This document shows positions 8,660 through 10,579 of a stretch of DNA of 22,094 bases, in pieces. Source of the DNA: Candidatus Levyibacteriota bacterium. Lineage in GTDB: Bacteria; Patescibacteria; Microgenomatia; Levybacterales; UBA12049. How positions within the stretch are numbered: position 1 is the first letter of the stretch; each line of letters begins with the position of its first letter. The position numbers and the translations under genes are program-made. The notes beneath the pieces were generated by a model, which worked only from the letters and a program-made list of their open reading frames with translations, did no database searches and was not told where the DNA came from. The stretch spans positions 1 through 22,094 of the forward strand of contig PPGL01000102.1 of NCBI GenBank assembly GCA_003173915.1, in the 5' to 3' direction.

Positions 8660-9328
8660 ATGTCACGGCGTTTTCTTAGCATACTCATTACTGCAGGGAT
8701 TGTCACAATTGTTTTATCTGCCACGCCTTCATTTGCAAGTCCTCATGTAGTGTTTATTCAGTCAACAAATACACAAGTAAATAGTGCGTTTAATTCAAAA
8801 GCAGCAAATCTTCGATTGACACTCAATAATTTATTAAAAGAGCACACGGTTATGGGAGCCATAATGCTTGGCAAGCTGTATGAAGGAAAGAATACAACGC
8901 AACTTGAATCGCTTATGATTTCCAATGGTGACCAAATAACAGCAATTATTACAAAAACGTATGGCACAAATGTTGGAAATCAGTTTTCAAAGCTGTGGAC
9001 AGAGCATATGCAAGAATATAAAAATTACACAATCGCAGAAAAAAATGGCAATACCACAGGAATGAATACTGCTCGGGCCAATTTATACACCATTGCAAGT
9101 CAAATGGGAAATCTTTTAGGAAAAGCAAGTAAAAACGTATCTTCACAAACAATAACCAATCTAATGACTTCCCATATCGATGGAACCCTTGCTTTTGTGG
9201 ATGCGATAGCAAGTGGAAATGAGACAACAGCAGCAAATCTTATGAAACAAGGATACGACCAAGCAGGACAATTTGCAGACGGATTAACTCACGCAATACT
9301 TCTTGATAAACCTCAGGAATACCAATAG
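8660..9328 (+). CDS. Secreted helical protein of unknown function
   Basis: 222 residues. A signal peptide (MSRRFLSILITAGIVTIVLS, then ATPSFASPHV) has a likely cleavage site after about residue 26. The mature protein is nearly all helical and appears to hold repeated units: LRLTLNNLLKEHTVMGAIML, an NQFSKLWTEHMQEYKNYT segment, and a later NLMTSHIDGTLAFVDAIASG segment. The alternation of 'L..L...H' helices resembles secreted proteins sometimes annotated copper amine oxidase-like in Firmicutes; that label is weak and I do not adopt it. Conserved His residues could bind metal, but this is inference. Confidence 0.65.
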   Translation: MSRRFLSILITAGIVTIVLSATPSFASPHVVFIQSTNTQVNSAFNSKAANLRLTLNNLLKEHTVMGAIMLGKLYEGKNTTQLESLMISNGDQITAIITKTYGTNVGNQFSKLWTEHMQEYKNYTIAEKNGNTTGMNTARANLYTIASQMGNLLGKASKNVSSQTITNLMTSHIDGTLAFVDAIASGNETTAANLMKQGYDQAGQFADGLTHAILLDKPQEYQ

Positions 9329-9374
9329 TCTTCATACAGATTTAGCTGTTTGCCAAAATATATCCTATAGCATA

Positions 9375-9403
9375 TTGACGCAGATATGTGTTTATGGTAT
9401 GAT
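9375..9403 (+). promoter_or_regulatory. Strong promoter of the attenuator leader
   Basis: TTGACG at 9375-9380, a 17-nt spacer, and TATGAT at 9398-9403 preceded by TGG, an extended -10. The next ATG (9410) is exactly 6 nt downstream, so the first leader peptide should itself be read from a leaderless transcript. Confidence 0.7.
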
Positions 9404-9409
9404 TGTTTT

Positions 9410-9454
9410 ATGAATAGCAATTTTATAGTAATGATTATGCTTCCAAACCGTTAA
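9410..9454 (+). CDS. Leader peptide 1 (14 aa) of a tandem attenuator
   Basis: The frame encodes MNSNFIVMIMLPNR and stops with TAA at 9452-9454. The ATG lies 6 nt after an extended -10. A second in-frame ATG at 9431 would give MIMLPNR. The last eight codons, from an ATG and ending AAC CGT TAA, match the second leader peptide in length and in most codons. The 8-nt antiterminator arm begins at the very next base. Ribosome position at the end of this frame is therefore likely to decide how the RNA folds. Confidence 0.6.
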   Translation: MNSNFIVMIMLPNR

Positions 9455-9504
9455 TCGGCGGGAGCATTTTTTGCGCATTTCACCCCGCTGAGCGGGGTTT
9501 TTTT
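9455..9504 (+). promoter_or_regulatory. Attenuator 1: antiterminator arm and intrinsic terminator
   Basis: The terminator hairpin is CCCCGC (9483-9488), a TGA loop and GCGGGG (9492-9497), followed by seven T (9498-9504). The arm TCGGCGGG (9455-9462) can instead pair with CCCGCTGA (9484-9491): eight pairs, one of them G-U. That pairing destroys the terminator. The two folds are mutually exclusive. Confidence 0.7.
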
Positions 9505-9561
9505 ATGGAAAAATCACAAAGATACATTATCTATACAATGATTATTCTCATGAACCGTTAA
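9505..9561 (+). CDS. Leader peptide 2 (18 aa) of a tandem attenuator
   Basis: The frame starts with the ATG directly after the T-run of terminator 1 and encodes MEKSQRYIIYTMIILMNR, stopping with TAA at 9559-9561. An in-frame ATG at 9538 would give MIILMNR. The end aligns with leader peptide 1: M-I-[M/I]-L-[P/M]-N-R-stop, with identical AAC CGT TAA codons. GGGG at 9494-9497 is a possible weak ribosome site 7 nt upstream. It can only be transcribed after readthrough of terminator 1 or from an internal promoter. Confidence 0.55.
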   Translation: MEKSQRYIIYTMIILMNR

Positions 9562-9562
9562 A

Positions 9563-9625
9563 TCGGCGGGGAGATGTATTGTAGAAATAGTATTCTATAA
9601 CCACCCGCCGAAAGGCGGTTTTTTT
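9563..9625 (+). promoter_or_regulatory. Attenuator 2: antiterminator arm and intrinsic terminator
   Basis: The terminator is CCGCC (9605-9609), a GAAA loop and GGCGG (9614-9618), then seven T (9619-9625). Outer AACCAC/GTGGTT can extend the stem across the T-run. The arm TCGGCGGG (9563-9570) is the exact complement of CCCGCCGA (9604-9611), giving an 8-bp antiterminator without mismatch. The stop codon of leader peptide 2 ends 1 nt before the arm. Confidence 0.7.
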
Positions 9626-9642
9626 GTGGTTTTGCGGAGAAG

Positions 9643-9650
9643 GGAGGTGA
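9643..9650 (+). promoter_or_regulatory. Canonical Shine-Dalgarno of the amidotransferase gene
   Basis: GGAGGTGA at 9643-9650 is followed by 5 nt and the ATG at 9656. It sets the start here rather than at the in-frame GTG at 9626. Most other genes in the window lack such a site. Confidence 0.85.
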
Positions 9651-9655
9651 TATAT

Positions 9656-10579
9656 ATGGTATTTACTGGAGAATTAGCGACATTTGGAAGACACTCTTTT
9701 GGTAGTTCTTTTGCTTCACAAGCAAGGGAGGCATTGGCGCGGAGTAAAAAGAACGAAATTCTACAACAGCGACCAACAGTACTTGTTGTTCAGTCAAGAA
9801 ATAACGCTGAACGGCTAAAAGGAGAGCAGGAAAGAGTACGAGCACTTGCTGCAAAAGCTGGTGTTGACGTTTGGTTTGTTAATCCACTTACCCAACACGA
9901 TAGACAATGGGAAGACACATCAAAGCTCTTACAAGGAGTAGATGGAGTACTTTTTACTGGCTCATCAGATGTAGACCTCAGTGTTCGTACGGCGGAAAGA
10001 GACTTGTATCTTTTTCGAACAAGCGCTCTTGCTAAAGAGGCTGTCAGACGTGGTAGTGCACTGATGAATCCTTTACCCGTACTTGGAATTTGTTTGGGAC
10101 ACCAAATGATTCATTTGGTGTCTGGAGGAAAAGTCGAAAGAGATCCTGCTCAGGCAGAAACAGGAACAGGAAGAGTTGTTCTTAAAGGAGACGCGGCAAG
10201 AGACCGATTCCTTGTGAATGTTCCGTTAACCCATGATGCTCAGAGACAATTCGGTTTTTTGGAAATTTTTGGACACAAAGATAGCGTTACAAAACTTGGG
10301 AAAGGATTTAGAAGACTTGGTTCTACAGAAAGAAACAAAAATTCTTTGGCACGTAGACGAGGCGTTTTTACAACCCAAGGACATCCTGAAATAACAGACG
10401 CAAGCGCGCTTCGCCGCGCAATGGAACTCGCTAAAGGTCACGATAGCAGAATGGGAGATTATGTGGAAAATTATCCTATTCTTGATACTCCTGGGACCGA
10501 TGAAATAGTCACCAACTTTTTTAGAAGTGTTTTTCAAAGAGTTGAAAGGAGAAAGGACAAAGTGGCTAGGAGAAGATAA
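9656..10579 (+). CDS. Class I glutamine amidotransferase-like hydrolase
   Basis: 307 residues from the start fixed by the Shine-Dalgarno. The fold motifs are in order: VDGVLFTGSSDVDLS (about residues 95-109), the nucleophile elbow LGICLGHQ with C146, and TTQGHPEITD with H243 and E245. These supply the Cys-His-Glu triad of class I amidotransferases and gamma-glutamyl hydrolases. About 40 extra N-terminal residues precede the core, and the C-terminus is strongly basic (RRKDKVARRR). No synthetase domain or partner gene lies beside it, so the substrate is unknown; a PuuD-like gamma-glutamyl hydrolase role is possible but unproven. It is controlled by the two attenuators upstream. Confidence 0.8.
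   Translation: MVFTGELATFGRHSFGSSFASQAREALARSKKNEILQQRPTVLVVQSRNNAERLKGEQERVRALAAKAGVDVWFVNPLTQHDRQWEDTSKLLQGVDGVLFTGSSDVDLSVRTAERDLYLFRTSALAKEAVRRGSALMNPLPVLGICLGHQMIHLVSGGKVERDPAQAETGTGRVVLKGDAARDRFLVNVPLTHDAQRQFGFLEIFGHKDSVTKLGKGFRRLGSTERNKNSLARRRGVFTTQGHPEITDASALRRAMELAKGHDSRMGDYVENYPILDTPGTDEIVTNFFRSVFQRVERRKDKVARRR

Follow-up and report, generated by a model that had tools for sequence, protein, structure and literature searches.

Two probable ribosome-mediated transcription attenuators in series before an amidotransferase gene of a Microgenomates bacterium

Layout of the two switch units

The window, i.e. the whole stretch of 22,094 nucleotides analysed here from a Candidatus Levyibacteriota genome, carries two switch units in series between an upstream gene, which ends at position 9328, and a gene for a class-I glutamine amidotransferase-like protein (Table 1). 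A YchF protein encoded in the window has its best matches, at up to 64%, in Candidatus Levyibacteriota or Levybacteria, which led us to place the genome among Microgenomates. Each unit consists of a short ORF, its stop codon, the arm TCGGCGGG and an intrinsic terminator, and in either unit the 5' arm of the terminator can choose between two pairing partners, namely the TCGGCGGG arm and its own 3' arm. The units are 71-80% alike across three ungapped blocks and look like tandem duplicates. The placement of the second leader behind the T-tract of the first terminator resembles the layout of the second unit at the related locus L157. The -10 element of the promoter-like site ends 6 nt 5' of the leader ATG at 9410, and if transcription begins where this site suggests, the window transcript would be nearly leaderless. 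Further in-frame ATGs of leader ORF 1 lie at 9386, 9431 and 9437, the one at 9386 having been taken as its start in the family-wide leader scripts.

Table 1. Features of the two units and of the controlled gene (positions in the window)
Feature	Position	Strand	Basis or remark
Promoter-like site TTGACG-17-TATGAT	9375..9403	+	consensus scan
Leader peptide 1, MNSNFIVMIMLPNR and stop	9410..9454	+	ORF reading, 14 codons
Unit 1 leader stop TAA	9452-9454	+	sequence
Unit 1, 1:2 hairpin (AUGCUUCC/GGGAGCAU and CCG/CGG), antiterminator competitor	9437..9467	+	fold; family own-versus-swapped 1:2 z -9.9
Unit 1 arm 2, TCGGCGGG	9455..9462	+	0 nt after stop
Unit 1 arm 3, CCCGCTGA	9484..9491	+	pairs with arm 2 (antiterminator) or partly with arm 4 (terminator)
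Unit 1 intrinsic terminator, 7-T tract	9482..9504	+	consensus match; stem 9482-9498, T-run 9498-9504
Leader peptide 2, MEKSQRYIIYTMIILMNR and stop	9505..9561	+	ORF reading, 18 codons; start directly 3' of terminator 1 T-tract
Unit 2 leader stop TAA	9559-9561	+	sequence
Unit 2 arm 2, TCGGCGGG	9563..9570	+	1 nt after stop
Unit 2 arm 3, CCCGCCGA	9604..9611	+	pairs with arm 2, no G-U
Unit 2 intrinsic terminator, 7-T tract	9605..9625	+	consensus match; terminator 9605-9618, T-run 9619-9625
Shine-Dalgarno-like GGGAGG	9642..9647	+	sequence; 8 nt before gene ATG
Controlled gene, class-I glutamine amidotransferase-like, 307 aa	9656..10579	+	Pfam, structure model

An earlier, sequence-only reading of this region had placed TCGGCGGG 0 or 1 nt after the stop codon of both units and had paired it over 8 positions with the 5' arm of the following terminator, with one G-U in unit 1 (CCCGCTGA) and none in unit 2 (CCCGCCGA). 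Both statements agree with our coordinates, and its remark that the two pairings survive although the terminator arms and loops have changed is true of both units. In unit 2 the pairing is longer than was given there, with AACCGUU also pairing in the computed fold with GGCGGUU on the 3' side of the terminator. The window has two copies of the combination AACCGTTAA[A]TCGGCGGG, and no shuffle out of 100 contains it. When the terminator arm was kept fixed and the upstream stretch was dinucleotide-shuffled, with at most one G-U allowed, a run of 8 pairs arose in 16 (unit 1) and 5 (unit 2) of 2000 shuffles, two figures that are not independent since the units are homologous.

A family of related leaders

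The letters of the motif drift among relatives (the exact long pattern occurred in 0 of 82 genomes of the relative's order and the exact short pattern in 0 of 7 relatives), hence covariance models were used in place of exact patterns. The exact 15-base motif gave 13 stretches in IMG/VR, which were taken for chance matches. A first model of the two window units alone, with 8 pairs, matched 13 of 373 genomes of the class (the class of genome G001, from which the related locus L014 stems) at E <= 0.01 with a best value of 3.8e-6, a threshold at which about 4 chance matches are expected if the rough E-values hold. The second model, built from 15 sequences, i.e. the two units and the 13 matches of the first model, matched 98 of the 373 class genomes and, across the phylum, 22 of 286 genomes, some of them being those same class genomes. 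None of 37 control genomes from outside the class, mostly of other phyla and searched with laxer filters than the class, gave a match. These 37 remain from 40 genomes taken via other loci: the only one with a match, G707, belongs to the same class, because its class search gave class genomes already found, and G180 and G368, which had no match, were counted as class members. The covariance models score leader bases, so the search is not blind to the leader sequence; the downstream gene was not used in finding hits. From the matches listed, 60 stretches were fetched, and 97 loci and the window were scored; the 128 matches of this family set, which omits L115 (a duplicate of L157), L147-L155, L216 and L223-L225, comprise 115 distinct hits, or 111 after removal of near-copies and one antisense match. 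The leader ORF was readable in 109 hits; the codon test drew on 11 gene clusters, to which 36 of these hits belong.

Of the 115 distinct hits, 110 have a leader ORF that is 12 or more codons long and ends at the arm, compared to 19.3 with shuffled upstream sequence. The matches of the first model already include the leader MNSKNLLNLLLLTV before LeuA and MKISVLNHHSTTA before HisRS. Over the whole family, DAHP synthases are preceded by FYFYF-like or WFFF leaders, histidyl-tRNA synthetases by HH/HHH leaders (in L122, HisRS follows a racemase, as judged by eye), the HisI-type cyclohydrolase by an HQH leader, LeuA-like enzymes by LLLL, LLL or LNLL leaders, class-IV aminotransferases and acetolactate synthases by VLLI-like leaders and the cysteine synthase by a CC leader. 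ThrRS is preceded by a TTTT leader at a distance of 340 nt in L191, and follows the hit after 362 nt in L111 and after 125 nt in L210, where no leader was read; an FFF leader was found for one of three PheRS alpha genes. Clusters were named after the Pfam hits of a single representative, which was scanned for 40 of the 62, and 16 of these 40 representatives are without a Pfam match.

The correspondence between codons and genes can be put in numbers. In the 36 annotated leaders the cognate residues summed to 20.7 versus 7.7 (sd 1.4) under permutation, a value reached in 0 of 20000 permutations; permutation of the 11 clusters (0 of 20000) and omission of the 15 training sequences (18.9 versus 7.2, n=31, 0 of 20000) gave the same picture, all of these being counts among related family members and not strict probabilities. 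As a set, the controlled genes fit the sensed amino acid in these leaders. At least two adjacent cognate codons occur in 31 of the 36, the other five being L111 (Leu-rich), L122 (HYH), L174 (HQH) and two PheRS leaders. Relative to the GGCGG core, cognate codons stand at -7, -6 and -5 in 39, 40 and 34 of 45 leaders, respectively, in a set that adds clusters 3, 8, 4 and 5, whose His or Tyr type was taken from the leaders themselves, and excludes ThrRS and PheRS. A simple typing rule assigned the 109 leaders to ILV (38), Phe/Tyr (31), His (13), Met (3), Thr (1) and Cys (1), leaving 22 unclear. Furthermore, in 74 of 132 matches (108 leaders, gaps of 0-39, counted without a shuffled control) the -10-like hexamer is separated from the leader ATG by 6-12 nt, and the leader genes of the family are probably nearly leaderless. 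Judged from their sequences, the relatives are ribosome-mediated amino-acid attenuators.

Several leaders stand before proteins of less obvious function. YYY/YYYY leaders (e.g. SYYYYQLLYRR) precede two families (clusters 4 and 5; L132, L195, L180, L184 and L203) whose representatives have no Pfam match, and a large protein family with a common block like PPTSDSGEYGDDF lies behind ILV-rich leaders in L117, L127 and L179, the representative from L179 again being without a Pfam match. An HHH leader precedes the protein at L156:674-2080, the first half of which resembles by eye a DapF-type epimerase and the second half of which is a GNAT domain as judged by its cluster mate L196; its product may be a histidine racemase, which is a guess. 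In three loci (L098:1219-1539, L156:223-594 and L187:286-651) the His-codon leader is the C-terminal tail of a longer ORF, which in L098 encodes a Trp_repressor-family protein (Pfam 4.4e-21) and looks similar by eye in the other two; such an ORF would be a regulator whose own tail serves as attenuator leader.

The RNA structure of the family was analysed by comparing the own arms of each hit with arms swapped between hits. The own pair was better for 2:3 (z -14.5), 1:2 (z -9.9, Table 1) and 3:4 (z -11.5), compared to z -1.1 and -1.5 in the controls 1:3 and 2:4 and to z -2.5 to -5.2 in the reversed-arm controls, which are weaker yet not null (2:rev(3) z -5.2); 1:4 is unusable as a control, being complementary by construction. 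Column by column, covariation was anchored in 83 of the 111 hits. Strong covariation is seen in the pair directly adjoining the core on its outer side (0.70 versus 0.47, 0 of 2000; types GC, UA, AU and UG) and weak covariation in three further columns (16, 56 and 57 of 2000), while that in the remaining seven is not significant in these hits. The scarcity of strongly covarying columns and the reversed-arm values count against an attenuator. In the close relatives L104 and L106 the 8-bp outer helix of the 1:2 hairpin is kept (CAAUCUCC/GGAGAUUG and CAAAUUCC/GGAAUUUG), while the residues encoded by it change from N-L to K-F, i.e. by comparison of these two sequences the RNA pairing is kept over the peptide sequence.

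Attenuation and other explanations

On these grounds we consider it very likely that both units control transcription by ribosome-mediated attenuation, as the trp/his/leu leaders do, and that they act in series before the class-I glutamine amidotransferase gene. Part of the observations would suit other explanations as well. The presence of terminator-like sites and their tandem duplication are what one would find if the upstream gene simply had two ordinary duplicated terminators with arms that are complementary by chance or for terminator strength, but this gene is separated from terminator 1 by a promoter-like site and leader ORF 1, and the codon-gene match, the leader ORFs and the 1:2 and 2:3 pairing of the family speak against it as well, which leaves it very improbable. 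An attenuator that responds to a general slowdown of translation or to a drug-stalled ribosome, and not to one amino acid, would be in line with the mixed codons in the window and with a controlled gene that is not known to encode an enzyme for the synthesis of any one amino acid; however, the relatives carry amino-acid-specific codons matched to their genes, and we regard this explanation as improbable. Least of all do we expect a ligand-binding riboswitch or a T-box, although alternative pairing upstream of a gene would fit one: leader ORFs occur across the family, and Rfam 15 gave no match at gathering score in the window and none in 20 family loci except two tRNAs. A permissive Rfam search of positions 9360-9660 returned 22 hits, all below their cut-offs, the leader-type hit among them being Phe_leader with 17.5 bits against a cut-off of 55, and a riboswitch or T-box was rejected on this basis.

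The predicted folding of unit 1 is consistent with attenuation. With an assumed ribosome footprint that covers 18 nt upstream and 11 nt downstream of the first A-site base, the RNA made up to arm 3 forms 2:3 with a probability of 0.19 and 1:2 with 0.80 in the absence of a ribosome, whereas a ribosome placed on the codon at 9431, 9434, 9437 or 9440 raises 2:3 to 0.98 and one at the stop codon lowers it to 0.0. In this fold model the states match the classical three-state attenuator logic. The sequence-only reading had proposed that a ribosome resting at the stop codon covers the arm and permits termination, which agrees with these values, and that a free arm lets transcription continue, which does not, as the free arm folds into the 1:2 hairpin with predicted termination. 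After synthesis of arm 4, every state modelled, that with the stalled ribosome included, favours the unit 1 terminator at equilibrium (0.62-0.97), so the outcome must be kinetic and set by the order of synthesis. In unit 2 the 1:2 hairpin is weak and 2:3 is formed in the computed fold unless a ribosome sits at the stop codon; its antiterminator helix is lengthened by 1:4 pairing and reaches the T-tract, an extension that might itself terminate. The model thus predicts unequal units, unit 1 being off and unit 2 on without translation. By the pairing scores, mutually exclusive 1:2, 2:3 and 3:4 helices are present in the family, and in the window they are clear for unit 1.

Anatomy, family, codon-gene match and pairing were obtained by computation; for kinetics, transcription start and actual termination we infer the following course. 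RNA polymerase would start at or just before the leader ATG, followed by the ribosome. If the control codons are read promptly, the ribosome would reach the stop codon and cover arm 2, and the 3:4 terminator would form. When the charged cognate tRNA is short, the ribosome would stall 5-7 codons before the arm and open the 1:2 hairpin, which would set arm 2 free to pair with arm 3, and transcription would continue. Without a ribosome, 1:2 and then the terminator would form in unit 1. Transcripts that pass terminator 1 would meet a second, similar switch. Hence the translation-coupled switch of the sequence-only reading stands as a terminator/antiterminator pair, twice in series and with its pairing kept in relatives, but the signal is most likely, by the position of the control codons, a ribosome stalled on them 5-7 codons before the arm and not merely a free or covered stop codon; the alternative pairing had been recognised, while the competing 1:2 hairpin and the codon sensor had been overlooked.

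Sensed amino acid, tandem copies and wider meaning

The control stretches of the window read MIMLPNR in unit 1 and MIILMNR in unit 2, a mixture of Met, Ile and Leu without a run of one codon. Position by position they resemble ILV-type leaders that end in IN[RPA] and the stop, with Leu at -6 in both; their ILV fractions of 0.29 and 0.43 compare to a mean of 0.35 in the other leaders, and Met is their most unusual residue. From this composition we lean slightly towards a branched-chain amino acid (Leu/Ile) as the one sensed. As a less likely but serious possibility, an attenuator of the same family may sense methionine, with Met at -9/-7 (unit 1) and -9/-5 (unit 2) as control codons. Each leader has two Met in its control window of seven residues versus a mean fraction of 0.01 elsewhere, and at least two Met at -9..-4 occur in only 3 of 109 leaders, i.e. 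both window units and L212 with MMM at -7..-5; a Met leader before metN is reported for S. lividans in the available text of PMC8079986. Nevertheless, each unit has only one Met within -7..-5, the one at -9, inherited by both units from their common origin, could act as a start codon, and Leu at -6 is the sole residue common to both units within -7..-5.

Pfam and Foldseek do not link the controlled gene clearly to any one amino acid. Its protein matches GATase (4.8e-12) and Peptidase_C26 (4.8e-8) in Pfam, and its structure model (pLDDT 84.7) finds gamma-glutamyl peptidase and GMP synthase subunit structures as best Foldseek matches. Six clear and three weak relatives were obtained among 7996 scored candidates from 5.8 billion proteins, and C146, H243 and E245 of the triad-like motifs are invariant in an alignment of seven sequences. 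The search in 82 genomes of the relative's order yielded no relative of this protein, only two hits in frames of 515-516 codons that were taken for GMP synthases. In the class, 3 of 373 genomes have a distant GATase; one of them (L220) lies downstream of a tandem attenuator, and no convincing attenuator match was found near the other two. At L220:2044-5382, tandem ILV-type attenuators are followed by a methyltransferase, a 500-aa protein without Pfam match and the class-I GATase, an operon-like relative of the window arrangement.

Tandem pairs within 320 nt recur, with 13 among the 115 distinct hits including the window pair, and the tighter or graded control by two copies suggested before is plausible because of this recurrence. 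By a coarse score, the two leaders agree in amino-acid type in all 12 pairs that were readable; in this score one leader of L124 ties ILV with Phe/Tyr and the window pair counts as ILV, unlike the typing rule for 109 leaders, which calls both window leaders Met.

The trp, his, leu and ilv leaders of E. coli are ribosome-mediated amino-acid attenuators, and T-boxes and tandem riboswitches sense amino-acid or metabolite supply by RNA-ligand binding and terminator choice, sometimes in series. The switch family described here shares with the former the leader ORF with control codons, the exclusive 1:2, 2:3 and 3:4 helices and the terminator before the gene, and its leader ORF with control codons sets it apart from the latter. 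The sequence-only reading did not recognise it as a described leader family, and Rfam has no match at cut-off, but its kind is the known trp/his/leu type. It differs from known attenuators of this type in that leaders for several amino acids share one GC core (GGCGGG/CCCGCC/GGCGGG), and in its occurrence in Microgenomates, recurrently in tandem and without an Rfam match at cut-off. The available portions of the sources describe complementary triples for actinobacterial trp attenuators (PMC1262725), leaderless transcription of leader genes in Streptomyces (PMC8079986) and a theory of ribosome-mediated attenuation (PMC1183508). In the accessible text on Salmonella mgtCBR (PMC3641672), two leader ORFs with attenuators lie in one leader before one operon, an arrangement like the one seen here; the two respond there to different signals, ATP and proline, whereas here the leaders of a pair are of the same type by the coarse score.

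Our literature search, with subscription journals mostly outside its reach, gave, among the papers listed, no report of leader-peptide attenuators from Patescibacteria, Microgenomates or the candidate phyla radiation, and the sole match for Patescibacteria and leader peptide concerns peptidases of bacteriocin precursors. Candidate-phyla bacteria are known almost only from genomes. They are described, in the part of PMC7143001 at hand, as commonly without complete amino-acid pathways. As far as the available text of a 2010 survey goes (PMC2965389), leader-peptide systems were known only from Proteobacteria, Actinobacteria and, as a new addition, Firmicutes; the range grows with a family as common as this one in a further lineage.

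The leaders show which amino acid the cell watches before each gene and thus give testable roles for many uncharacterised proteins and for residual biosynthetic enzymes, and the tandem arrangement on a single signal lends itself to testing whether serial attenuators sharpen a response. With evenly balanced confidence, we propose that Microgenomates have a lineage-wide amino-acid starvation regulon derived from one cassette, with the GC core named above and a near-leaderless leader gene. This cassette would have received new control codons for about six amino-acid types and would have been copied in series on a single signal; in three loci it seems to be joined to the tail of a TrpR-family protein. 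The role of the regulon would be that of T-boxes in Firmicutes, and the pair in the window would be a Met- or branched-chain-type example controlling an amidotransferase.
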